Assembly (NCBI GenBank): GCA_012837605.1
Contig: DUQV01000107.1
Span: forward strand, 1 to 37,745
DNA length: 37,745 bases
Direction: 5' to 3'
Origin: Clostridiales bacterium
Lineage (GTDB): Bacteria > Bacillota > Clostridia > Lachnospirales > Lachnospiraceae
Positions 2,793-35,686 of the stretch are shown here, in pieces. The translations under genes and the position numbers were made by a program. Position 1 is the stretch's first letter, and the number at the start of each line of letters is the position of its first letter. The notes beneath the pieces are model-generated. The model ran no database searches, was not told where the DNA came from, and saw only the letters and a list, made by a program, of their open reading frames with translations.

Positions 2793-3923
2793 ATGTTAGC
2801 ACAGACACCGCCAATGGGGTGGAATTCATGGAATACCTTCGGATGGGATATATCAGAGGAGTTAATAAAAGGGACAGCAGATATCTGGAACGACTTAGGT
2901 CTTTTGGACGCAGGATATCAATATCTTGTAATTGATGACTGCTGGTCACTAAAGGAAAGAGACAAGAATGGATATTTAGTACCGGACCCCAATAAATTTC
3001 CGAACGGAATGAAAGCAGTGGCAGATTATGTTCACTCGAAGGGGTTAAAATTTGGAATATATTCTTGTGCAGGGACTATGACCTGTGCAGGACATCCTTC
3101 CAGTCTGGAGCATGAATTCGCGGATGCACAAACCTTTGCAGATTGGGGTGTGGATTTCCTAAAATATGATTATTGCTACAAGCCTCATAATATTCCCGGA
3201 CATATTTTATATAAGCGTATGGGCATGGCTCTTAGAAACAGCGGGAGGGATATCCTGTTCTCAGCCTGCAATTGGGGAAGCGACAACTGCCATGAATGGA
3301 TCAGGTCTACAGGTGCACATATGTTCCGCTCCACAGGAGATATTCAGGACAATTGGGAGTCTATTAAAAATATAGCCCTTAGTCAGTGGAATAAAGAATT
3401 CTATAGTGCTCCTTACTGCTATAACGACATTGACATGCTGGTTGTAGGAATGTATGGAAAGGGGAATGTTGCTCTTGGCGGATGTTCTGATGAAGAATAT
3501 AAGACACATTTCTCCCTATGGTGTATCATGAATTCTCCATTGATGATTGGTTGTGATATCCGCAGCATGAATGAAGCAACACATAGCATATTGACCAATA
3601 AAGAGGTTATTGCTCTAAATCAGGATCCTGAAGGGCGTCAGGCATACAGTATGGAGCAGTGGAATAACAGCGATGTTAAGATATATATAAAGCCAATGAC
3701 TGACGGAAGCTTTGGCATAGGGTTCTTTAATATGGGAGATTCTGATGGAGAAGGCTCCTTACAGTTCTGGGATATCGGACTGACAGCCTCATCAGGCTAT
3801 GGGCTGCATTTTCGTGATTTGTGGGAGCATGAGGATGTTGGGGTATTTACCGAGAATTATACCTGTAAGCTTAAGCCTCATCATTGTAAGGTGTTTAGAG
3901 CAAGATTGGTAAAGACAAAATGA
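2793..3923 (+). CDS. Alpha-galactosidase, glycoside hydrolase family 27
   Basis: Expected to remove terminal alpha-1,6-galactose from galactomannan oligosaccharides, melibiose or raffinose-type sugars. The TIM barrel starts at once (TPPMGWNSWN, then IDDCW at 48-51). The nucleophile is D126 in KYDYC. The acid/base is D183, preceded by R179 in the family's RxxxD pattern (RSTGD). A short beta-sandwich domain ends the 376-aa chain. There is no signal peptide, so the enzyme is cytoplasmic. RBS GGGGAGG precedes the ATG. Its stop overlaps the next gene by four bases (ATGA), so the two are translationally coupled. The GH27 assignment is firm; the natural substrate is inferred from the neighbours. Confidence 0.95.
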   Translation: MLAQTPPMGWNSWNTFGWDISEELIKGTADIWNDLGLLDAGYQYLVIDDCWSLKERDKNGYLVPDPNKFPNGMKAVADYVHSKGLKFGIYSCAGTMTCAGHPSSLEHEFADAQTFADWGVDFLKYDYCYKPHNIPGHILYKRMGMALRNSGRDILFSACNWGSDNCHEWIRSTGAHMFRSTGDIQDNWESIKNIALSQWNKEFYSAPYCYNDIDMLVVGMYGKGNVALGGCSDEEYKTHFSLWCIMNSPLMIGCDIRSMNEATHSILTNKEVIALNQDPEGRQAYSMEQWNNSDVKIYIKPMTDGSFGIGFFNMGDSDGEGSLQFWDIGLTASSGYGLHFRDLWEHEDVGVFTENYTCKLKPHHCKVFRARLVKTK

Positions 3924-4209: not shown

Positions 4210-5178
4210 ATGTGGATTAAAGGCTTTACATATGGTTGGATGGCAAAAAGGGGAGCTTATCGTACGGAAGAAGCGATTAAATCTCAAGATAAATTATTCG
4301 ATTTGGGGGTTAATTGGATATGCTTATCGTTTCCGGTGATGCAGCAAAGCTTTTCATCCACCCGTATTTATTTTGATTACAGAACAACAGTAACTGACAA
4401 GGATTTGATGTTTGTTATTAACAGAGCCCATGAACGGGGTATAAAGGTTTGTCTTAAGCCTGTGATTAACTGTGAAGACGGAATGTGGAGAGCTTATATT
4501 GACTTTCCCGACGAGGATATGTTAGGGCAGGATAAGTATTGGAATGAATGGTTTGAGTCTTATAGTGCATTTCTGTGTCACTACAGTGAGTTGGCACAGG
4601 ATACAGGCTGTGAAATGTTATGTATAGGCTGTGAGATGAGCAGTACGGAAAGAAAAGAAGAACACTGGAGAAGCCTGATAAAGAAGGTTCGCAGCATATA
4701 TAAGGGACCAATTGTATATAACACTAATCATGGAAGAGAAGATAAAGTAAATTGGTTTGATGCAGTGGACTATATCGGAATCAGTGCTTATTACAGGGCA
4801 GGTAAAAAGCCTTCCGACTCCAAGGAGAATATGCTTAAGGTCTGGGATAAGGTTAATACACAGATGGAGCAACTTAGCAGAAAATATAATAAGCAGATTA
4901 TATTCATGGAGGTAGGGTGCAGAAGTGCAAACGGCTGTGCCATGATGCCTTGGGATTTTGTTCATAAAGATTTGCCGTGGGATGAGGATGAACAAGCCAC
5001 TTTCTATGAATCCTGTCTGGAAGCATTTTATAACAAGAAATGGTTTGCGGGATTCTTCTGGTGGGATTGGAGTATTGAAATCTACGAAACAAGAGAGGAA
5101 GCCATGAGGGACAAAGGCTTCAATATCCATCTTAAAAAGACCGAAGATGTGATAAGGAAGTGGTACCAAAATCTATAG
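4210..5178 (+). CDS. GH113-like glycoside hydrolase (probable beta-mannanase or mannosidase)
   Basis: A 322-aa single-domain TIM barrel without signal peptide. The two expected carboxylates are E142 in LCIGCEMSS (acid/base at the end of strand 4) and E234 in IIFMEVGCRS (nucleophile on strand 7), with FFWWDWS near the end of strand 8. This layout fits family GH113, whose described members cleave beta-1,4-mannans or release mannose. Next to a GH27 alpha-galactosidase and ManA, it would hydrolyse debranched mannan oligosaccharides inside the cell. RBS AAAGGG stands 10 bases before the ATG. The family call is from motif pattern only; a related GH5- or GH53-like clan-A enzyme is the alternative. 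Confidence 0.8.
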   Translation: MWIKGFTYGWMAKRGAYRTEEAIKSQDKLFDLGVNWICLSFPVMQQSFSSTRIYFDYRTTVTDKDLMFVINRAHERGIKVCLKPVINCEDGMWRAYIDFPDEDMLGQDKYWNEWFESYSAFLCHYSELAQDTGCEMLCIGCEMSSTERKEEHWRSLIKKVRSIYKGPIVYNTNHGREDKVNWFDAVDYIGISAYYRAGKKPSDSKENMLKVWDKVNTQMEQLSRKYNKQIIFMEVGCRSANGCAMMPWDFVHKDLPWDEDEQATFYESCLEAFYNKKWFAGFFWWDWSIEIYETREEAMRDKGFNIHLKKTEDVIRKWYQNL

Positions 5179-5409: not shown

Positions 5410-7557
5410 TCAGTCATAGTCGGCAACACTTCTGATATCAATTATTTCGGTACGTGTATAGGTTACCGATTTCGGCCTTTCTCCGGCAACCAGGTAGTTA
5501 TACATGGAGATAACCGTATCATGACCTTGTCCAAACGGATCCTGACCGATAGCTGCATAGACTATGCCTTTTTGAATAAGCTTGATAATATCATCATCAT
5601 AGTCAAGGCATACTATTTTAACTTGTCCTACAAGACCCATTTCTTCAATTGCTCTTGCCACTCCGCTGACATTTCCTGTCAGAATAACTATACCTTTTAA
5701 GGTATGGAATTTATTAAGCAATTCCTTAGAATTCTTGTAAACACGAAGGGCGTCGCTTTCAGCCTCAATCTCGGTAGCAATCTTCATCTTTTTATTCTTA
5801 GCTATAACCTCATAAATGGCATCTCTTCGAACACTGTTGATAGAGGTTTCCAGCGGTCCGCGAACAATAGCTATCTCACCCTCATAATCTAGGGCTTTTG
5901 AAATGGTTTCAGCGGCCAGCTTACCTGAAATATAGATGTCAGGACCAAAATATGCCAGTCTTTCAACACCCTCATTAAAATCACAGTTAAACGCTATTAC
6001 AGCAATATTCTTACGCTGTGCTTTCATAACATCTTCATCTATTCCGCTTGTAAATCCCGGAAGAATCAGTCCGTCATAGTTTTTATCTATTCTATCCTTC
6101 AGATCGGTATTAAGCTTACCAAAATCCTTCGTGTAGCCAAGAAATTCCACATCAACATTTTTAGTCTTTAGTTCAGTCTGGGCATATAACACACCCTGTC
6201 GGACGCTTTCCCAGAAAGGATGATCCAGAGGACTGAACAAAGCAATCTTCAACCTCTTTGAGCTTGTCTGTTCAACAGGTACAACAGAGGTTCTGTATCT
6301 CATCAACAGATTCTCAATGCGGGACAGCATGTTCTGTAAAGATAATGCCTGGTTATTAATCTGTTCATTTTCAGCAAGTTCTTCCTCTGTAATAGCAGCT
6401 ACATCTTGAGTTATCGATGAAATCTCGATAGAAGCATCATGCAGGGTGTGACCCTGATTGCTGATATCCTTGGTGCTTTCATTAATCAATCGGGATTCCT
6501 CATATACATTCTTCATGTCATCACTTAATATGTATGTATTCTTATTGATAGTATAGAACGTATCCTTTACAGAATTGAAGATATCCTTACTAATATCAAA
6601 GCTCTCAACACAACTGGCAATACTTTCGCTTACCTTTGCGTTACTGCTGAGTATATTATTGAGCAGCTTGTCTATCTGTCCGATACTGTCTCTGGTGGCT
6701 GCGGATAGCTTATTCATTTCCTGAGATACTACTACAAAGCCTCTTCCGGCTTCACCGGCACGGGCTGCCTCAACGGCGGAATTCAAAGACAGAAGCTTTA
6801 ATTGTTCAGTTATATTAATAATTAAGCCGTTAACCTGGTCAATTTCCTTCAAATGAGAATTAAGTGTTTCAATGAATGCTGCCGTATCAGATAAATTAGC
6901 TGAGATAACATCCATCTGCTCATTGTACTTATCTACATGCTGTGAACCTTCTTGGGTTATCTTAACAGTGTTTTCTACAAATTCTTCGATTTTTGCCAAA
7001 GTGGCAGTAATATTGTTAGCCCTGTTTGCGACCTCATCGATACCGGCTAAAGTTTCTTTAACGATTTTAAGCTGCTGTTGTGCTTTTTCTGCAACAGTTG
7101 CCATATTGCTTGCAATATTTTCATTTCCCTTATAGCTCATATCCAGACTCTTAGTAATGTTATCAACCGCATCTGATAAAACAATAACATTAATCTTGGT
7201 TGACTCAATAAAGCTTAAAAGGTTTCTTTTCATTTCATTTACAGCAGAAGTTAAAGATTCCAATCCTCTGGTTTTGCTCTCTGTGATGTCACTTATATTA
7301 AGCTTACCTTGGGATAACAATTCTGCATTTTGATCAATATGGTGTACAGCACTGAAAAATCGTATTAATAATACCAGTAATGTTACAGCTAACGCTATTA
7401 ACAGTACTAAAATAAAATTAAAAAAAGCTTTGGACTGCATGTTTTGGTTTAGGATTATAAGCAAGACTAATAAAGCCAGTAAAGACAACAAAGAAGAAAA
7501 AATAAAAATTCTAGTATAATTCCGGTCTAAACGTCTCCCCTCCGATTGCTCAGACAT
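5410..7557 (-). CDS. Methyl-accepting chemotaxis-type transducer with C-terminal cytoplasmic sugar-binding domain
   Basis: A 715-aa protein with unusual order. Two membrane segments (about 17-37 and 45-67) are joined by only some 8 residues, so there is no extracytoplasmic sensor. A HAMP-like stretch follows, then a long coiled coil with the receptor hairpin tip near residue 269 (SLNSAVEAARAGEAGRGFVV pattern), which contacts CheA/CheW. From about 435 to the end there is an RbsB-like periplasmic-binding fold (KIALFSPLDHPFWESVRQG, GLILPGFTSG, AAIGQDPFGQG). With no signal peptide and both termini inside, that domain should be cytosolic and could sense internal sugars. I chose the ATG at 7557 because GGGAGG precedes it by seven bases; a GTG 15 bases upstream sits on that RBS. 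The neighbouring glycosidases suggest a sugar ligand. Confidence 0.9.
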   Translation of the reverse strand: MSEQSEGRRLDRNYTRIFIFSSLLSLLALLVLLIILNQNMQSKAFFNFILVLLIALAVTLLVLLIRFFSAVHHIDQNAELLSQGKLNISDITESKTRGLESLTSAVNEMKRNLLSFIESTKINVIVLSDAVDNITKSLDMSYKGNENIASNMATVAEKAQQQLKIVKETLAGIDEVANRANNITATLAKIEEFVENTVKITQEGSQHVDKYNEQMDVISANLSDTAAFIETLNSHLKEIDQVNGLIINITEQLKLLSLNSAVEAARAGEAGRGFVVVSQEMNKLSAATRDSIGQIDKLLNNILSSNAKVSESIASCVESFDISKDIFNSVKDTFYTINKNTYILSDDMKNVYEESRLINESTKDISNQGHTLHDASIEISSITQDVAAITEEELAENEQINNQALSLQNMLSRIENLLMRYRTSVVPVEQTSSKRLKIALFSPLDHPFWESVRQGVLYAQTELKTKNVDVEFLGYTKDFGKLNTDLKDRIDKNYDGLILPGFTSGIDEDVMKAQRKNIAVIAFNCDFNEGVERLAYFGPDIYISGKLAAETISKALDYEGEIAIVRGPLETSINSVRRDAIYEVIAKNKKMKIATEIEAESDALRVYKNSKELLNKFHTLKGIVILTGNVSGVARAIEEMGLVGQVKIVCLDYDDDIIKLIQKGIVYAAIGQDPFGQGHDTVISMYNYLVAGERPKSVTYTRTEIIDIRSVADYD

Positions 7558-7614
7558 GAAAATACCTCCCACTATTTTGTATTAATATAGTAATTACAAA
7601 AGCAACAGTATAAC

Positions 7615-7642
7615 TTGACACTTGTAATTATCTTCATATAAA
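7615..7642 (+). promoter_or_regulatory. Strong candidate promoter for the GH2 gene
   Basis: Perfect -35 TTGACA (7615-7620), 16-base spacer, TATAAA (7637-7642). The predicted start near 7649 leaves a leader of about 180 bases before the GH2 gene, in which I see no recognisable riboswitch. The rest of the 271-base gap is AT-rich and otherwise empty. Confidence 0.6.
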
Positions 7643-7828
7643 TGATATCATTAAAATCAAGTAAACACAATAGATAATAGTAGAAAAATGTCGTGTAAAT
7701 TAGAGAATATTAACCATTATATGATATAAAATTCCTGCATTCTTTGTAGAAATGTCATAAAATATCTGCATAATCTCATATTACATATCATATAATTGAT
7801 TATCAGTATGGACTAAAAGGAATGGAGT

Positions 7829-9676
7829 GTGTTTCGGTTGAAAATTAAGGATGCTGTTCGTACCTTGTTGTTTAAGAACAAGGATATTATATATAATCAG
7901 CTATATACTGAATGGGGAGAGAGATTAGATGCAGAATGTGTATTAGGCGAGTATCCCAGACCTCAGTTAAGAAGAAATAACTATACCATATTGAATGGTT
8001 ATTGGAATTACAATATTACTAAAGCTTCTGTTACCGTCAAACCAATGCATTATGACGGTAAAATACTGGTGCCTTTTTCACCTGAAAGTATTCTGTCCGG
8101 AGTAAAACGTCAACTTCAACCGGATGAGCTGCTTTGGTACGGGAAAAATTTATTTATTGACAAGAAGCATCCGGGAAAACGCTTAATTTTACATTTTGGT
8201 TCCGTAGATCAGACATGTGAGATATTTATAAATAATAAAAGCGTGATGAGACACATCGGAGGATATCTTCCGTTTTCTGCCGATATAACGGATTATGTAT
8301 TAGAGGGAGGAAATCTTCTGACCGTAAAGGTTAGGGATGCCTCGGAAACATCATACCACAGCAGAGGTAAGCAAAAACTAAAAAGAGGCGGTATGTTTTA
8401 TACCGCACAAAGCGGAATATGGCAGACTGTTTGGATGGAATGGATTCCGGATATATACATTACATCATTAATTATTACTCCATTAGTTGATGAGAGCATG
8501 GTAAATCTTACTGTCAATCTCAATAAAGACATCTGCAATACCGGCAGCAATGGTGCTTTTGCACACGAAAAGCAGGAGGATGTAAACAGCAAATATATGT
8601 TTCGGGTTGATGTCTATGATCATGGCACGAAGCTTATTTCAATTGTAACAAAGAATCCCACAATGAAAATTCCCATTAGAAATTTTACATATTGGAGTCC
8701 TGAAAATCCATATCTCTATGATATTGTTGTTTCGGTAGGAGAGGATGTTGTAGAGAGCTATTTCGCCATGCGAAAGATCGAGATAAAGAAAGATGAAAGC
8801 GGAAGAAGCCGAATATGTCTGAATGGTAAGCAGTATTTTCAAAACGGACTCCTAGATCAGGGGTATTGGTCGGATGGACTGTATACACCGCCAAGTGACG
8901 AGGCTATGATATTCGATATAGAGCAGGCGAAGAAGCTTGGGTTTAACATGCTCAGAAAGCATATTAAGATTGAGCCTTTGAGGTGGTATTACCACTGTGA
9001 CAGACTCGGTATGCTGGTATGGCAGGATATGGTCAATGGGGGAGGCAGATACAATCAGCTGCTGGTGGGATATCTGCCTACAATATTTCCATGGGTTTCA
9101 GGTCTGATTAGTGATAAATATCATTTTCTGTTTGGTCGAAAAAGTGCTGAAGGAAGGTTGGAATGGGTCAAGGAGTGTGAAGAAACGGTTAAACTTCTTT
9201 ATAATAGTCCGTCTGTTATTGTATGGGTTCCATTTAATGAGGGGTGGGGGCAATTCGATGCCGAGAGGATAACATCGCTTATACGCTCGCTTGATAATAC
9301 CAGACTGATAGATCAGTCCAGTGGCTGGTATGACCAAAAGGGTGGAGACTTTAAAAGCGTACATAATTATTTTCATCCATTAAAATATACTCCCGATAAA
9401 CATTGTCGTGCAGTCGTATTATCGGAATTTGGCGGGTATGCCTGCTATATACAGGGACATTCTTATTCACCGATGCTTTATGGCTATAGGATATATAATA
9501 ATACCAATGATTTGGAAGCTGCATTGCAAAGGTTGTATACCGGAGATATTATGAGGTTAAAAAGACAAGGTGTGTCGGCGGTTGTCTATACACAGCTGTC
9601 TGATATTGAGGATGAGGTGAACGGGTTATTTACTTATGACCGCAAGGTGTGTAAGATATCTAAACCGTTGATATAG
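7829..9676 (+). CDS. Glycoside hydrolase family 2 protein (beta-galactosidase/mannosidase/glucuronidase type)
   Basis: A 615-aa enzyme with the GH2 order: jelly-roll sugar-binding domain (about 55-210), immunoglobulin-like domain (about 215-320), TIM barrel (about 330-610). The catalytic acid/base is E471 in PFNEGWGQFD and the nucleophile is E533 in LSEFGGY. There is no signal peptide. It begins at GTG 7829 after AAAGG; a TTG at 7838 with GGAG upstream is a possible alternative start. Specificity cannot be read from sequence. Beta-mannosidase or beta-galactosidase would fit the nearby mannan/galactose genes. It converges with ftsH, with only 17 bases between the stop codons and no clear terminator. 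Confidence 0.88.
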   Translation: MFRLKIKDAVRTLLFKNKDIIYNQLYTEWGERLDAECVLGEYPRPQLRRNNYTILNGYWNYNITKASVTVKPMHYDGKILVPFSPESILSGVKRQLQPDELLWYGKNLFIDKKHPGKRLILHFGSVDQTCEIFINNKSVMRHIGGYLPFSADITDYVLEGGNLLTVKVRDASETSYHSRGKQKLKRGGMFYTAQSGIWQTVWMEWIPDIYITSLIITPLVDESMVNLTVNLNKDICNTGSNGAFAHEKQEDVNSKYMFRVDVYDHGTKLISIVTKNPTMKIPIRNFTYWSPENPYLYDIVVSVGEDVVESYFAMRKIEIKKDESGRSRICLNGKQYFQNGLLDQGYWSDGLYTPPSDEAMIFDIEQAKKLGFNMLRKHIKIEPLRWYYHCDRLGMLVWQDMVNGGGRYNQLLVGYLPTIFPWVSGLISDKYHFLFGRKSAEGRLEWVKECEETVKLLYNSPSVIVWVPFNEGWGQFDAERITSLIRSLDNTRLIDQSSGWYDQKGGDFKSVHNYFHPLKYTPDKHCRAVVLSEFGGYACYIQGHSYSPMLYGYRIYNNTNDLEAALQRLYTGDIMRLKRQGVSAVVYTQLSDIEDEVNGLFTYDRKVCKISKPLI

Positions 9677-9693
9677 TATTGCTGTATCATCAG

Positions 9694-11403
9694 TTATAAT
9701 ATTAGTCTGTCAATGTCTTCATCACATAGAGATTCCTTTGCAAGCAGTTCTTTTGCTATACATTCCAATGCTTCAATATTTCTACTTAACAGCTCCTTTG
9801 TTTCATCATATAGCCCGTTCATTATGGTTCTGCATTTTTCAAGCAGCTCATTGTCGATACCTTCATTAAATACCTGCGTACTGAACAGACCCATATCCGG
9901 ATCCATTCCGTATTTATTCGTATAATCCACTATAAGGGAGGAAGCCTTTTGAATATCATTGCTTGCACCGGTTGTAATCTCATCGGGTCCGTATATTAAT
10001 TCCTCGGCAGCTCTTCCTGCCAACAGTATCCTGATGCTTCCCAGTATCTGTCTTACGCTTCTGTACATAGTATCATTTGGAATTGACAGATTAAAGCCTC
10101 CCGCACCTCTGACACTGGGGATAATAGTTACCTTTGAAATATAATTTTCGGGAAGCAGAAGCTTGGTTGCCAGAGCGTGGCCTGCTTCATGATATGCGGT
10201 TACTTCCCTTTCATGTGTGGTGATATAGCTTAGATCTGTTTTGGGTGCACCTGCAAGGACTGTATAAAAGGCCCTGTCTATATTTTCTTTGGTAATAACC
10301 GGTCTTTTCTCATTGGCGGCAATTATGGCAGCTTCATTCAGCAGATTTTCCAGCATGGCTCCTGAAAAACCCACGGTAGATTTTGCCAATGAACCTAAGT
10401 CAACATCATCGGATAAGGGTTTATTCTTTGCATGAAGCTTAAGTATTTTTTCTCTGGAATTCACATCAGGAAGTCCTATCTCGATTTGTCTGTCAAAACG
10501 TCCCGGACGAAGCAAAGCTTCATCCAGGGTGTCCATACGGTTCGTGGCTCCAATAACAACTATTCCCTGATTATCATGAAAGCCCGACATCTCTGTAAGA
10601 AGTGCGTTTAAGGTCTGATCCCTTTCATCATTGCTTGCCGAGCTGCTGCGGGCTCTTTTCTTGCCTATGGCATCGATTTCGTCTATGAAGATTACAGCCT
10701 TGTTATGCTTTTTTGCTTTATTAAAGAGGCTTCTTATCCGACTGGCTCCCACGCCTACATACATTTGAACAAAATCAGAACCGCTCATGGCATAGAAGGG
10801 AACATTTGCCTCTCCCGCAATAGCTTTAGCCATAAGAGTCTTGCCTGTTCCGGGAGGACCATAGAATAATAATCCCTTGGGCATACGGGCACCAAGCTCT
10901 GTATACTGCTGAGGATTCTTAATAAAGCCTATGATATCCTCCACCATAGCTTTGGCTTCTGTATTGCCTGCTACTGAATTCAAAGTTATCCCAATACTTT
11001 CATCATTTTTACCGGCATCTTTTATAGTGATACCGGAAGTGCCGCCATTTCGTGTATAATAAATAATTCCAAATGCAATCACAGCCAAGATTAGTACGCC
11101 TGCTGCATTTGAAAGGCTGTTGCTCTTGTAGGATATTTCTATATCCTTAATAAGGAGGAACTCTATGAAGTCCTCTGTCTTTGGATTTGGAACCGTATAT
11201 TTAGTATCAGGGCTGTCCGACAGGAAGGCATCAAAGGTATTGCCTTCTTCGTCAATAGTGACCTTTGCTATCCTTCCCTCTTCAACTGCCTCCAAAAAAT
11301 ATGAGTATGACAGCTCATTATTAGGTTTATTCATACTATAAATTCCTGCCCCTATAAGAATAATAACTAAAGTTACCATCGCAGGAATCATAAATTTTCT
11401 CAT
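9694..11403 (-). CDS. ftsH: FtsH-family ATP-dependent zinc metalloprotease
   Basis: A membrane-anchored AAA+ protease that extracts and degrades membrane and regulatory proteins. Visible parts: membrane segments at about 4-24 and 98-117 flanking a small extracytoplasmic domain, Walker A GPPGTGKT (182-189), Walker B FIDEID (239-244), second region of homology ending in RPGRFDR (299-305), zinc site HEAGH (405-409) and the downstream acidic ligand region GASNDI (479-484). At 569 aa it is shorter than the 600-650 aa of main FtsH proteins, and it lacks the long C-terminal tail. It also sits away from the usual tilS-hpt neighbourhood, so it may be a second paralogue. RBS GGAGGAG precedes the ATG. 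Confidence 0.95.
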   Translation of the reverse strand: MRKFMIPAMVTLVIILIGAGIYSMNKPNNELSYSYFLEAVEEGRIAKVTIDEEGNTFDAFLSDSPDTKYTVPNPKTEDFIEFLLIKDIEISYKSNSLSNAAGVLILAVIAFGIIYYTRNGGTSGITIKDAGKNDESIGITLNSVAGNTEAKAMVEDIIGFIKNPQQYTELGARMPKGLLFYGPPGTGKTLMAKAIAGEANVPFYAMSGSDFVQMYVGVGASRIRSLFNKAKKHNKAVIFIDEIDAIGKKRARSSSASNDERDQTLNALLTEMSGFHDNQGIVVIGATNRMDTLDEALLRPGRFDRQIEIGLPDVNSREKILKLHAKNKPLSDDVDLGSLAKSTVGFSGAMLENLLNEAAIIAANEKRPVITKENIDRAFYTVLAGAPKTDLSYITTHEREVTAYHEAGHALATKLLLPENYISKVTIIPSVRGAGGFNLSIPNDTMYRSVRQILGSIRILLAGRAAEELIYGPDEITTGASNDIQKASSLIVDYTNKYGMDPDMGLFSTQVFNEGIDNELLEKCRTIMNGLYDETKELLSRNIEALECIAKELLAKESLCDEDIDRLIL

Positions 11404-11427
11404 ATAAACTCTCCTCCGGTCGTCATA

Positions 11428-11455
11428 ATATTACACAATTCTACATTAATTGTAA
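11428..11455 (-). promoter_or_regulatory. Candidate promoter for ftsH (minus strand)
   Basis: Read on the minus strand: TTACAA (11455-11450), 16-base spacer, TAATAT (11433-11428). The -10 is about 25 bases from the ftsH start codon, giving a short leader that contains the GGAGG site. Confidence 0.4.
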
Positions 11456-11490
11456 CATCTCTTGCGATTAAATCCACAATCAAAATATGG

Positions 11491-11534
11491 AAACAGACCT
11501 GACATGTTATAAACCATGCTACAGGTCTGTTTTT
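11491..11534 (+). terminator. Terminator-like hairpin between divergent ftsH and subtilase genes
   Basis: An 11-bp perfect stem (11491-11501 AAACAGACCTG with 11522-11532 CAGGTCTGTTT), 20-base loop, T tract 11530-11534. The orientation fits + strand transcription, yet no + strand gene ends upstream of it. It may insulate the subtilase gene from read-through or act as a leader element. Confidence 0.65.
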
Positions 11535-11551
11535 ATGTCATCCAAAAATAC

Positions 11552-11578
11552 TTAACTTAGCCTGTATGTGCATATAAT
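11552..11578 (+). promoter_or_regulatory. Possible promoter for the subtilase gene
   Basis: TATAAT at 11573-11578 with a weak TTAACT (11552-11557) 15 bases upstream. The consensus -10 is the main support. It lies after the terminator-like hairpin and about 73 bases before the preferred start codon. Confidence 0.35.
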
Positions 11579-11650
11579 TGAATAAAGCATAAGTGGCAAA
11601 GGTTTAATACTGTGCCGGCTTATCAGATGAGTTTATATCAGGAGGTTTGG

Positions 11651-13390
11651 ATGAACAGCGGCATTGTAGATAATCAATTAAATCTTGCTTTAGATGTGCC
11701 TGAAAGTGTCAGAGAAAGAACCTTGGATCTTGATGTGGGCTTTCAGCCTGAAACAAATACATGGGAATTAATCGTAAAGTATAGCGGCAGCCTTGATCGG
11801 ATAAGACAGGAGCTTAACATTGGTGTTGTGGAGCTTTCCGGTGGGTATGCGATAATAACGATACCTGAAAATTTGATAGATATACTGACAGGCTATGAGG
11901 AGATTATATTTATTGAAAAGCCTAAGAGATTATTCTATGAGGTCAACGAGGGCAGGCTGGCATCATGTATAAATCCTGTTCAGCAAGCTCCATACAGCTT
12001 ATTTGGCGAGGGAGTATTAATTGCGGTTATTGATTCGGGAATTGACTATTCGCATCCTGATTTTCGAAATGATGACGGTACTACGAGAATTGCGGCACTT
12101 TGGGATCAGACAATTCCCGGAAGTCCTCCACAGGGGTTTCGTATCGGTACTCTGTATACCAGAGAGCAGATTAATGAAGCATTACAGCTTCCTATGCCGC
12201 AGAGGCTGGATGTTGTGCCAAGCACAGACTTATCCGGCCATGGCACGCATGTGGCCGGCATAGCAGCCGGTAATGGAAGAGCGAGCAGCGGTCTGTACAG
12301 AGGAGTGGCTTCATCAAGTGAGCTGCTGATTGTAAAGCTGGGTGAGTCGGTGGGCAGTTCATTTCCTAGAACTACGCAGCTTATGGAGGCATTGGAATTC
12401 GCTGTACAATACGCCATATCGGTTGGAAAGCCCCTTGCGGTAAATATCAGCTTTGGCAATAATTACGGCTCCCATTCGGGAAGGTCAATTCTTGAAAGCT
12501 TTATTGATGATATCTCAAATATGGGCAGAACCGGTATAGTTATTGGAACCGGAAATGAAGGGGCTGAAGGAAACCACGCTCAGGGTATACTTCAAATGGG
12601 AAGTGTAGAAATTGTTGATTTTACCATCAGTAATTTTGAATTCTCACTAAACCTTCAGATATGGAAGAATTATTATGACCATTTTGACATTACAATAGTG
12701 GCACCTAACGGAGTGAGGGTGGGACCGATTCCTTCTATACTTGGCACACAGCAATTTCAAGTAGCTCAGACAGAGATTTTGCTTTATTATGGAAAACCCA
12801 CTCCATATAATGCTCAACAGGAAATATATATAGAATTCATACCAACAAACAGATATATTAATTCCGGAGTGTGGAGGATTGAGCTGGTTCCAAGACAAAT
12901 TGTTGTAGGAAATTATGATATGTGGCTGCCAACAGGAGGTGTTAAAAGTCCTGCAACCAGATTTTTGCTTTCTTCAGAATATACTACACTTACTATCCCA
13001 TCCACTGCGTTCAGAGCCATATCAGTAGGAGCCTATAATGCTTTTACAGGAAGCTATGCACCTTTTTCGGGAAGAGGGTTTACAAGAGATCAGGGCATCA
13101 AACCTGATATTGTAGCTCCCGGTGTTAATATAAATTCCTGTGCACCCGGGGGAGGTTACTCAAGACGTTCAGGAACCTCCATGGCGGCACCGTTTGTGAC
13201 CGGAAGTGCGGCACTCTTAATGGAATGGGGAATAATACAAGGTAATGACCCGTATATGTACGGAGAGAAGCTTAAGGCTTATCTCATAGACGGAGCAAGA
13301 CCGTTAAGGATAGAAACCGTATATCCTAACAGAACACTTGGTTATGGGGCATTATGTCTTGAGAATACATTTAGAAATATGTCTCTCTAG
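11651..13390 (+). CDS. S8 subtilisin-like serine protease with jelly-roll insertion (Csp-like)
   Basis: A 579-aa subtilase with the complete triad: D128 in VIDSGIDYSHPDF, H197 in SGHGTHVAG, S510 in GTSMAAP, and oxyanion N302 in GTGNEG. Residues 1-100 look like an inhibitory prodomain. About 130 residues (roughly 318-445) are inserted between the oxyanion Asn and the serine, matching the jelly-roll insertion of clostridial Csp germination proteases; the pattern is from family knowledge. There is no signal peptide, as in Csp proteins. The ATG at 11651 is preceded by a near-perfect AGGAGG five bases upstream; a GTG at 11612 would add 13 residues but has a weaker site. Both a germination role and a general intracellular protease are possible. 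Confidence 0.9.
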   Translation: MNSGIVDNQLNLALDVPESVRERTLDLDVGFQPETNTWELIVKYSGSLDRIRQELNIGVVELSGGYAIITIPENLIDILTGYEEIIFIEKPKRLFYEVNEGRLASCINPVQQAPYSLFGEGVLIAVIDSGIDYSHPDFRNDDGTTRIAALWDQTIPGSPPQGFRIGTLYTREQINEALQLPMPQRLDVVPSTDLSGHGTHVAGIAAGNGRASSGLYRGVASSSELLIVKLGESVGSSFPRTTQLMEALEFAVQYAISVGKPLAVNISFGNNYGSHSGRSILESFIDDISNMGRTGIVIGTGNEGAEGNHAQGILQMGSVEIVDFTISNFEFSLNLQIWKNYYDHFDITIVAPNGVRVGPIPSILGTQQFQVAQTEILLYYGKPTPYNAQQEIYIEFIPTNRYINSGVWRIELVPRQIVVGNYDMWLPTGGVKSPATRFLLSSEYTTLTIPSTAFRAISVGAYNAFTGSYAPFSGRGFTRDQGIKPDIVAPGVNINSCAPGGGYSRRSGTSMAAPFVTGSAALLMEWGIIQGNDPYMYGEKLKAYLIDGARPLRIETVYPNRTLGYGALCLENTFRNMSL

Positions 13391-32746: not shown

Positions 32747-35686
32747 ATGAAATTAAATACACCTTCTGGCTACCGATTTGTATTTGATGAAAAATTAGAG
32801 GATGTAAATGGGTGGGGAGCTTATCTTGTACACATAAAAACCGGTGCGAAGATTGCTCTAATTAAAAATGAGGATACTAATAAGGTGTTCTCTATTGGTT
32901 TTAGAACACCTCCAAAAAACAGTACGGGTGTAGCTCACATAATTGAGCATTCGGTACTGTGCGGATCAAAGAATTTTCCGGCAAAGGATCCTTTTATCGA
33001 GCTTGCTAAGGGCTCACTTAATACATTCTTAAACGCTATGACTTATGCTGACAGAACCGTATATCCGGTTGCCAGCCAAAATGACAAGGATTTTAAGAAT
33101 TTAATGCATGTTTATATGGATGCGGTATTATTTCCTAATATTTATACCAGAAAAGAAATATTTCAGCAGGAAGCTTGGCATTATGCTTTGGAGAACCCGG
33201 CAGATGAGCTTCATATTAACGGTGTGGTCTATTCGGAGATGAAGGGTGCTTTTTCATCTCCTGAACAGCAGTTGATAAGGCTTAATATGAATACTTTGTA
33301 TCCGGACACTGCATACGGTGTGGAATCCGGTGGAGATCCGGAGTATATCCCGGAGCTTACTTATGAAGAGTTTTTGGAATTCCATAGAACCTATTATCAT
33401 CCGTCTAACAGCTATATATATTTGTACGGTGATATTGATTTTGATGAACGGCTTATATGGCTTGACAAAGAATACCTGTCTAAGTTTGATTATTTAAAGG
33501 TGGATTCTGAGATAGCAACCCAGAAGAGCTTTGATACTTTTAAGGAGGTTGAAGCTTATTATTCCCTCGGTGAGGAAGATGAGCAAAAGGAAAATACCTA
33601 TTTTAGCCTTAATACATCTTTGGCAGAAAATAAAACCAAGGAGCTTATACTGGGCTTTCAGATTCTTGAATATGTACTGTTTGAGGCTCCGGGTGCTCCT
33701 GTTAAGCAGGCTTTACTGGATGCCGGTATCGGAAAGGATATTCTAAGCCATTTTAGCAGTGATTATCTTCAGCCTTTTCACTCAATAATTGCCAAGAATT
33801 CTGACGAAGCCAAGAAGTCGGAATTCATGTCGGTTATCCGCAACACACTGCAAAAGCTGGTCGACGAAGGATTAAATGAAAAATCTCTTCGTGGAGCAAT
33901 AAATATGTTCGAGTTCAGATACAGAGAGGCTGATTTTGGCAGTATTCCAAAAGGACTGATATATGGTCTAAGAATTTTAAAGAATTGGTTGTATGATGAA
34001 AATGACCTTTTCCAGAACTTAAAGGATAACATGCTTTATGACAAACTGAAAGATTATATCGGTACAGGTTTTTATGAACAGCTAATCAGGAAACATCTGC
34101 TGGATAATACCCATGCAACTTTAGTTGTATTAAAACCTAAGGCAGGGCTTAATAAGATTCGCGAAAAAAGCATGAAAGAAAAACTGACAGCTTATAAAAG
34201 CAGTCTGTCGAATGAAGATATTCAAAAAATAATAGATGAAACTAAGAATTTAAAAATATATCAGGAAACGCCTTCAACAAAGGAGGAAATAGAAACCATA
34301 CCTTTACTTAACAGGGATGACATAGGTACAAAGCCGCAGCCTCTATACAATGAAGAGAAGATGATAGAGGGCGTTAGGGTAGTGCATCATGAGGTATTTA
34401 CAAATGAAATCGCCTATATAAGATTGCTTTTCGATGTTAAGGATATACCAAAGGAGCTTCTTCCTTATATGTCTTTGCTGTCGGTTGTATTGGGGTTTGT
34501 GGACACGGAAAATTACAGCTATTTGGAATACTCCAATGAGGTAAATCTTAATACTGGCGGTATATATCATAGTGTTACAAGTTTTTCAGTTAAAGGCAGG
34601 ACTGATGAGTATTTACCCATATATGAAATCGGTACCAAGGTATTGTATAATAAGCTGCCGGAAGCATTCAGATTAATAGAAGAGGTGCTTTACCGTACGA
34701 GGCTGGTGGATTATAAACGCATTAAGGAGCTTATTGATGAGATGAAATCTAGGATGCAGATGATATTCCAGTCCTCCGGGCATTCGGTTGCCGCAAACAG
34801 AGCCATATCATATTACTCAACACACGGTATGTTTAAGGAGGTTACCCAGGGAATATCCTTCTATAAGTTTTTAGAGGAGCTGACAGCTAATTACGGTCAG
34901 ATGAAGGATACGGTGATCTCTAAGCTTAAAGAGCTTCTGGATATGGTATTTGTAAAAAGCAAGCTTACAGTGAGCATTACTTCAGATATAGAGGGCTATA
35001 ATAAATTCTCGAATAATTTTAAGTCGTTTGTTAGAGGTTTGCGTGAAAATACATCAGAAGGACAGTTTGAAGGCTATGACAGGATTCCGCTAAAGCCAAG
35101 GTGTTTGAACGAAGGCTTCAAATCAGCCATGCAGGTTCAGTACGTTGCAATGGCAGGTAATTATTTTAAAGCCGGATATGAATATACAGGAGCTTTAAAG
35201 GTTCTAAAGACGATTTTAAGCTACGGTTACCTATGGCAGCATGTAAGGGTAATGGGCGGTGCTTATGGATGCATGTGTGGTTTTTCAGGAGTGGATGGTG
35301 ATGTGTATTTTACATCCTATCGTGACCCCAACCTAAGAAATACGCTTCAGGTATATGAAAACATTCCTGAATTTATTAAAAATTATACAGCGGATGAGCG
35401 GGATATTACAAAGAGTATAATTGGAACCATCAGTACTCTGGATATGCCGATGACACCGCAGACAAAAGGCTCTAGGTCTTTAAGCATGCTTCTTTCGGGT
35501 GTAACCTATGAGGATCTAATTAAGGAAAGAGAAGACATAATAAATATTACACAGGAGGATATACGTTCTCTGTATAAATTGGTTCAGGCAGTTATTGCTG
35601 AAGGCAATATCTGTGTAATAGGAAATGAAAGTAAGATTGAAGAGGACAAAGACCTTTTTACTGAAGTTAAAAGCTTAATGATATAA
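32747..35686 (+). CDS. M16C-family zinc metalloprotease (PreP/falcilysin-like)
   Basis: A 979-aa insulinase-type peptidase. The inverted zinc motif HXXEH is H64-I-I-E67-H68 in VAHIIEHSVLCGS, and the distal zinc ligand is E164 in VVYSEMKGAFSSPE. Length fits the fused two-half M16C clan (presequence protease type), which forms a closed chamber and degrades short unstructured peptides. The C-terminal half contains VRVMGGAYGCMCGF and FTSYRDPN, features of the second homologous unit. There is no signal peptide, so it is cytosolic. The ATG at 32747 has GGAGG seven bases upstream. era follows after 43 bases and may be on the same transcript. Confidence 0.93.
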   Translation: MKLNTPSGYRFVFDEKLEDVNGWGAYLVHIKTGAKIALIKNEDTNKVFSIGFRTPPKNSTGVAHIIEHSVLCGSKNFPAKDPFIELAKGSLNTFLNAMTYADRTVYPVASQNDKDFKNLMHVYMDAVLFPNIYTRKEIFQQEAWHYALENPADELHINGVVYSEMKGAFSSPEQQLIRLNMNTLYPDTAYGVESGGDPEYIPELTYEEFLEFHRTYYHPSNSYIYLYGDIDFDERLIWLDKEYLSKFDYLKVDSEIATQKSFDTFKEVEAYYSLGEEDEQKENTYFSLNTSLAENKTKELILGFQILEYVLFEAPGAPVKQALLDAGIGKDILSHFSSDYLQPFHSIIAKNSDEAKKSEFMSVIRNTLQKLVDEGLNEKSLRGAINMFEFRYREADFGSIPKGLIYGLRILKNWLYDENDLFQNLKDNMLYDKLKDYIGTGFYEQLIRKHLLDNTHATLVVLKPKAGLNKIREKSMKEKLTAYKSSLSNEDIQKIIDETKNLKIYQETPSTKEEIETIPLLNRDDIGTKPQPLYNEEKMIEGVRVVHHEVFTNEIAYIRLLFDVKDIPKELLPYMSLLSVVLGFVDTENYSYLEYSNEVNLNTGGIYHSVTSFSVKGRTDEYLPIYEIGTKVLYNKLPEAFRLIEEVLYRTRLVDYKRIKELIDEMKSRMQMIFQSSGHSVAANRAISYYSTHGMFKEVTQGISFYKFLEELTANYGQMKDTVISKLKELLDMVFVKSKLTVSITSDIEGYNKFSNNFKSFVRGLRENTSEGQFEGYDRIPLKPRCLNEGFKSAMQVQYVAMAGNYFKAGYEYTGALKVLKTILSYGYLWQHVRVMGGAYGCMCGFSGVDGDVYFTSYRDPNLRNTLQVYENIPEFIKNYTADERDITKSIIGTISTLDMPMTPQTKGSRSLSMLLSGVTYEDLIKEREDIINITQEDIRSLYKLVQAVIAEGNICVIGNESKIEEDKDLFTEVKSLMI

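Follow-up and report, generated by a model that had tools for sequence, protein, structure and literature searches.

Chemotaxis arrays are thought to read mainly the outside of the cell. One study treats receptors whose sensor is C-terminal as a subfamily that is poorly characterised, counting at least 17 sensor types in Pfam (PMC7390727), and another notes archaeal cytoplasmic receptors with such sensors (PMC9680633). TlpD, in which a CZB domain forms a cytosolic sensor behind the hairpin, is reported to lack canonical methylation sites and to show that a sensor at the C-terminus can be coupled to a kinase interface lying far from it (PMC12871147). In a survey table, Peripla_BP_5 is listed once as a receptor sensor, with no stated position (PMC8547431), and no recognisable study of a receptor carrying Peripla_BP_4 at its C-terminus was found in the open-licence literature, the supplement of PMC7390727 lying outside the scope of this search. 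The C-terminal sensor layout is known in general.

We analysed a window of 37,745 nucleotides from a Lachnospiraceae genome (Clostridiales bacterium, contig DUQV01000107.1), in which one gene encodes a receptor of this kind. Like the canonical Firmicutes methyl-accepting chemotaxis proteins, it has membrane helices, a HAMP-like stretch, a hairpin of equal length and a CheA in the genome; these canonical counterparts are of the long-hairpin class, known as 44H. The window family differs from them in lacking an extracellular sensor, the sensor being fused behind the hairpin, in the replacement of the tip threonine with leucine, and in mostly lacking strict methylation motifs. The predicted cytosolic sensor behind the hairpin is shared with TlpD, but the window sensor is a two-lobed sugar-binding domain rather than a zinc helix bundle, and 61 of the 62 members of the window family have a membrane helix. 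We favour, with a probability of roughly 60%, a membrane-anchored chemoreceptor that senses from inside by means of a cytosolic sugar-type binding domain and signals to CheA.

Domain order and distribution of the receptor family

The receptor frame runs uninterrupted on the minus strand from an ATG at 7557 to the stop at 5410 and encodes 715 aa; the mechanical start of the open reading frame is a GTG at 7572, five codons upstream of this ATG. The following features were assigned:

5410..7557, minus strand: receptor gene with C-terminal binding domain, 715 aa (ORF, Pfam, orthologues)
7565..7570, minus strand: likely ribosome-binding site GGGAGG, 7 nt before the ATG (read from the sequence)
7453..7509, minus strand: membrane helix 1, residues 17-35 (hydropathy)
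7363..7419, minus strand: membrane helix 2, residues 47-65 (hydropathy; Lys/Arg pattern of 37 two-helix members)
7207..7368, minus strand: HAMP-like stretch, residues ~64-117 (alignment to HAMP as called by Pfam in the canonical receptors L020 and L025)
6286..7206, minus strand: receptor signalling hairpin, residues 118-424 (MCPsignal; tip-to-end length matching canonical receptors)
6718..6807, minus strand: hairpin tip, residues 251-280, with Leu253 where Thr is usual (family alignment)
6256..6285, minus strand: short linker, residues 425-434, with invariant Thr423 beside it and Pro427 within it (alignment A2, n=48; spacing)
5413..6255, minus strand: type-1 sugar-binding domain, residues 435-715 (Peripla_BP_4, PDB sequence matches, pocket comparison)

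Pfam identified MCPsignal at residues 194-368 (E 7.5e-24, 84.9 bits against a curated cut-off of 34.6) and Peripla_BP_4 at residues 443-690 (E 1.1e-36, 127.1 bits against a cut-off of 35.1), the latter spanning positions 7-255 of the 258 in the profile, and called no HAMP domain in the window receptor protein. The domain order proposed by the first-pass annotation was confirmed by the ORF and Pfam. Its two adjacent membrane helices with almost no loop were recovered by hydropathy, 11 residues apart, and the complete RbsB-like fold that it placed at about residues 435-715 agrees with the nearly whole Peripla_BP_4 match and with the sugar-binding solved relatives, as judged from profiles. The hairpin that it described is complete, according to MCPsignal and the canonical length, but the tip lies at about residues 253-263 and not near residue 269. 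The altered tip, the scarcity of methylation motifs and the breadth of the family go beyond that annotation.

The closest solved relative of the hairpin by sequence is the receptor 2ch7/3ja6. In the canonical controls, the hairpin ends 161-162 residues past the tip Glu in 16 of 18 proteins (157 in one, 170 in one), and the linker of the window receptor begins where canonical hairpins end (Thr423 = Glu263 + 160). The hairpin is of full length, and the binding domain is therefore an addition to a whole receptor and replaces no part of it. An assembly chimaera is unlikely, because a separately assembled genome (L050) encodes the same receptor, also of 715 aa and 84% identical.

Within a class sample of 291 genomes, the family was found in seven, including the window's own, with 40-48% identity in the other six; at least nine further genomes hold a distant group (22-27% identical) with the same domain order. 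Scanning named genomes gave 67 loci, from hosts including a Herbinix-like clade, Mobilitalea, Acetivibrio, Herbivorax, Pseudobacteroides, Thermoclostridium, Clostridium puniceum and many rumen Lachnospiraceae, together with more distant matches in Chloroflexi and two Proteobacteria. The scan relied on a pair of peptide patterns, of which one lies at the hairpin tip, and tip counts lean on that pattern; Leu253 is equally present in members from the whole-protein search, which is free of tip-pattern selection, and rumen members carry it too, though their tips fail the scan's tip pattern. The check suggested by the first-pass annotation, a search for the same domain order in other genomes, was run on this material: 62 family proteins, including the window's, were compared (60 loci, several of the proteins coming from one genome), plus nine retrieved members of the distant group, whose domain order was checked with Pfam. 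The fragments L052, L064 and L101 were excluded throughout and L104, which is cut short, from the pocket count; the Chloroflexi loci L110, L112 and L114 lay outside the Pfam scan, and L115 and L116, which are other receptors, were not used. MCPsignal and the binding domain were both matched in 48 of 48 aligned members (Pfam, E up to 0.1), and the 47 other rows of alignment A2 are 30-84% identical to the window protein, with invariant residues in the binding domain. The receptor is a member of a conserved clostridial family.

In a binding-domain tree of 31 rows, the distant group was set apart (support 87/77), and the family lay nearer three binding proteins with signal-like N-termini, with no firm separating branch. 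A single origin of the family and the distant group was considered and found no support in this tree. Two genomes carry neighbouring paralogue pairs of the receptor, all within one family (L037:6695-8881 and 9411-11564; L077:2716-4863 and 7809-9959), and a plasmid search gave a single record, for a binding protein that lacks the receptor part. Other arrangements were seen in Chloroflexi, where N-terminal membrane helices are followed by a related binding domain and then by an MCP domain (L107:7467-10139, L109:7566-10154) or a GGDEF domain (L111:7620-9635, L113:3213-5366). The binding domain of these four proteins matches the later part of the profile only and is probably inside the cell, since no helix separates the domains.

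Membrane topology, spacing and the binding pocket

Hydropathy, calculated with a simple 19-residue window and not with a trained topology predictor, gave no membrane segment after residue 65 of the window receptor. Among the 62 members, two helices were found in 37, one in 24 and none in one (L038, which begins at the HAMP-like stretch); no member has a membrane segment between the hairpin and the binding domain by this measure, and one marginal segment falls within the binding domain in 2 of 62. Mean Lys/Arg numbers in the 37 two-helix members were 5.0 for the N-tail, 0.8 for the loop and 2.6 for the 25 residues after helix 2, the N-tail exceeding the loop in 37/37 and the stretch after helix 2 exceeding it in 32/37. 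The 24 one-helix members have a mean of 1.5 before the helix and 7.1 after it, the latter being the larger in 23. Given this charge pattern and the lack of a later helix, both ends of the protein are predicted to be inside, with the hairpin and the binding domain in the cytosol, which is where the first-pass annotation had placed the latter. Two of the nine distant-group receptors (L040:6142-8076 and L041:3404-5350) have no membrane helix, with in-frame stops upstream, and are soluble receptors with the same domain order.

It is very improbable that the protein is inserted in the reverse orientation, with an extracellular binding domain. Such an orientation would suit the names of most solved relatives of the domain, which are those of periplasmic or transporter binding proteins, but the receptor hairpin is on the same side as the binding domain, the N-tail is richer in Lys/Arg than the loop in every two-helix member, other members have one helix or none, and no helix follows helix 2 ahead of the domain.

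Glu263 at the tip and Thr423 lie 160 residues apart in all 62 members, and the binding domain starts 185 residues after Glu263 in 59 of them, 184 in two and 187 in one; in the distant group, the latter distance is 180 residues in 8/9. Both Thr423 and Pro427 are invariant across alignment A2 (n=48). This constant spacing suggests rigid coupling, and with a fixed register, lobe closure could well be coupled mechanically to the final helix of the hairpin. The C-terminal end of a folded-back hairpin sits at its membrane-proximal foot, where ordinary receptors get their HAMP input. In the internal-sensing model, the two helices would serve as an anchor only and the binding domain would lie in the cytosol at this foot, next to the HAMP-like stretch and held firmly against the last hairpin helix by the short conserved linker. 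Closure of the lobes on a sugar-type ligand would shift this helix, the shift would travel along the coil to the tip, the presumed site of CheA and CheW, and an internal sugar signal would in this way join the array common to ordinary receptors. With few methylation motifs, the signal might be tonic and poorly adapting, and so suited to metabolic state.

Among solved structures, profile comparison places the binding domain closest to 6gq0, 2qvc/2h3h/3c6q and 5xsj/5xss/5xsd, which we take to be a Geobacillus protein, the Thermotoga glucose-binding protein and XylFII, respectively, the last presumably the sensor protein of a xylose kinase. Most solved relatives are named as sugar-binding, and some names are unclear (CbpA, CbpD, 'sensor protein'). 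The proteins 6gq0, 2qvc/2h3h and 5xsj are separate, extracellular proteins, whereas the window domain is fused and predicted to be inside. A related fold is used inside the cell as a sugar sensor by LacI-type regulators, in which the output is a DNA-binding head and not, as here, a receptor hairpin.

The pocket of 61 members was compared with that of E. coli RbsB, for which Asp89, Arg141, Asn190 and Asp215 are reported as pocket residues and Phe16, Phe164, Gln235, Asn64, Asn13 and Phe15 as further tested residues (PMC5557919). Phe15 is kept in 61/61 members and Arg141, Asp215 and Gln235 in 53/61 each, and Phe16 is replaced with Trp in all. Asp89 is Asn in 59/61, and Arg90, which we also take to be a pocket residue, is Cys in 40/61; Asn190 is Thr, Gly or Ser in 61/61, Phe164 gives way to other residues in most members, and Asn64 lacks an equivalent in all 61. 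The pocket is therefore not that of the known ribose binder, owing to the changes at Asp89, Arg90, Asn190, Phe164 and Asn64, and is likely to be live, for a sugar-like ligand. Some of these changes would also be expected of a decaying remnant without function, a reading that can hardly be correct, as both the hairpin and the binding domain are under constraint (dN of 0.042 and 0.105, respectively, against the 84% identical relative, with dS saturated or undefined) and the domain retains invariant residues over 48 members, the others being 30-84% identical to the window protein.

The hairpin tip, methylation motifs and CheA

The window receptor has an antiparallel hairpin with the conserved tip Asn, Glu and Gly-Phe-x-Val; Asn259, Glu263, Gly268, Gly273, Phe274 and Val276 are invariant in 62/62 members. 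A Q-T-N tip, or at least T-N, is absent from the window receptor: the Thr position is Leu in 62/62 members, the Asn position is Lys in 44/62 and Asn in only 4, and the Gln position is Gln in 39/62 and Ser in 20. The 18 canonical controls, which are similarity-search matches to the window protein and not a random set, have T-N in 17 and the whole Q-T-N in 13, and the distant group has Thr in 9/9 and Asn in 8/9. Contact with CheA and CheW may therefore differ or fail in the family.

No strict methylation motif was found in the hairpin of the window protein; 49 of the 62 members have none and 13 have a single one, against none in 3/18 controls. Such motifs are also absent in 5/9 of the distant group, whose tips retain Thr, and their scarcity is therefore not special to the family. 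The tip change and the scarcity of motifs may together reflect weak adaptation and a special contact with the kinase. It may also be that CheA is not driven at all by a receptor with such a tip, and loss of CheA control is the main rival to the internal-sensing model. The protein would then keep the packing of dimers and trimers and act as a scaffold, as a damper of mixed trimers or with another partner. We consider this unlikely. The substitution of Leu253 throughout the family, the contrast with the controls in methylation motifs and the retention of Q-T plus N or H in nine other receptors with readable tips from flagella-less relatives all speak for it, but the other tip residues do not vary, the distant group combines a Thr tip with few motifs, and CheA accompanies the receptor in nearly all genomes tested.

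The window's own genome (2.11 Mb, 85% complete) has one CheA, four CheW-domain matches, five receptors, FliG and FlhA. Tests for CheA and FliG covered 51 genomes: the window's own and those for 50 of the 67 loci. CheA was present in 50 of them, the exception being the sole Chloroflexi genome included, and the link to CheA suggested in the first-pass annotation is supported by this co-occurrence (50/51, against 116/291 genomes of the class sample with CheA over the cut-off, a comparison that ignores kinship). A CheW domain was found in all 16 genomes that the first search gave, among them those of the distant group. FliG was present in 43/51 genomes; the eight without it also lack FlhA, which is present in 6/6 others tested. 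As CheA is kept where FliG and FlhA are missing, its presence follows that of the receptor more closely than flagellar genes do.

These eight genomes (L082, L083, L085, L088, L091, L100, L102 and L105) are rumen-type Lachnospiraceae with CheA and 3-5 receptors. In all of them the receptor adjoins tgt and yajC, a context also seen in the FliG-bearing L095, L098 and L106. One flagella-less genome has a che operon (L133, ~5900-12734) between codY and rpsB, in which a CheY-like receiver, CheA, CheC and a sigma factor were identified by Pfam, and CheB, CheW and CheD were assigned by position and size only.

Gene neighbourhood and meaning of the family

The genes around the receptor in the window include manA and the following:

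1660-2739: LacI-type regulator
2793-3923: GH27
4210-5178: GH113 (Pfam E 2.7e-112)
7829-9676: GH2 (Pfam)

The glycosidase genes of the first-pass annotation (GH27, GH113-like and GH2) were all three identified. The receptor gene is convergent with GH113 and divergent from GH2, and lies outside their operons. Hydropathy shows no signal peptide on the receptor-adjacent enzymes of the window, and the local island would therefore appear to serve the intracellular breakdown of galactomannan fragments. At least one of the gene clusters manA, LacI, GH27, GH113, GH2 and GH1 is held by 13/17 loci of the close clade, and no member of these clusters was found in the 55 other loci compared, a comparison with differing flank lengths that covers those six clusters and not other glycosidase families. 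The glycosidases suggested as a hint at the ligand are thus, among the loci compared, confined to the close clade, and their presence is weak evidence for the ligand in the window's clade only.

The context in rumen relatives includes housekeeping genes (tgt, yajC, leuB, ilvD) or sugar permeases. This variation by lineage, from glycosidases to tgt, yajC, leuB and ilvD, and the family-specific changes in the pocket would be compatible with an internal ligand other than plant-polymer sugars, such as a phosphosugar, a nucleoside or another metabolite. We regard this as possible but rather doubtful, as the solved relatives are for the most part named as sugar-binding, if not always clearly, and several of the named hosts are degraders of plant fibre.

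No convincing operator shared between the upstream regions of the receptor and its neighbours was found among palindromes and repeats; one pair of AT-rich 20-nt stretches, at 1562 and 7573, shows 80% similarity. A search for sigma-28-like promoters upstream of the family genes showed no overall enrichment (17/59 genes at no more than two mismatches, against ~12.5 expected); at one mismatch, four sites were found against 0.9 expected (L068, L077 with two, and L079). Elsewhere in the window, we noted an FtsH-family protease of 569 aa at 9694-11403 (561.6 bits, under the NCBIfam FtsH cut-off of 600), whose cluster occurs in eight receptor loci including the window, a subtilase with a CspB prodomain at 11612-13390, related to the CspBA germination protease, and a large M16C/PreP-type peptidase at 32747-35686. 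At two other loci, members of a single gene cluster are found immediately upstream of the receptor and in its orientation (L093:5260-7842 and L087:2857-5097); the product of the L093 gene is a hybrid histidine kinase that contains a LacI-type binding domain.

Many hosts of the receptor family come from plant-fibre habitats, and an internal sugar clamshell on a clostridial receptor would provide a direct molecular route for metabolism-dependent behaviour. The altered tip would also constitute a natural test of the tip residues needed for kinase control. More tentatively, and with considerable doubt, these proteins may form a class of receptors that feed the cell's own sugar state to CheA, having no outside sensor, a re-cut tip and little methylation, and giving a tonic rather than a gradient-following signal; in the flagella-less rumen relatives, the receptor and CheA may then serve a non-swimming output.
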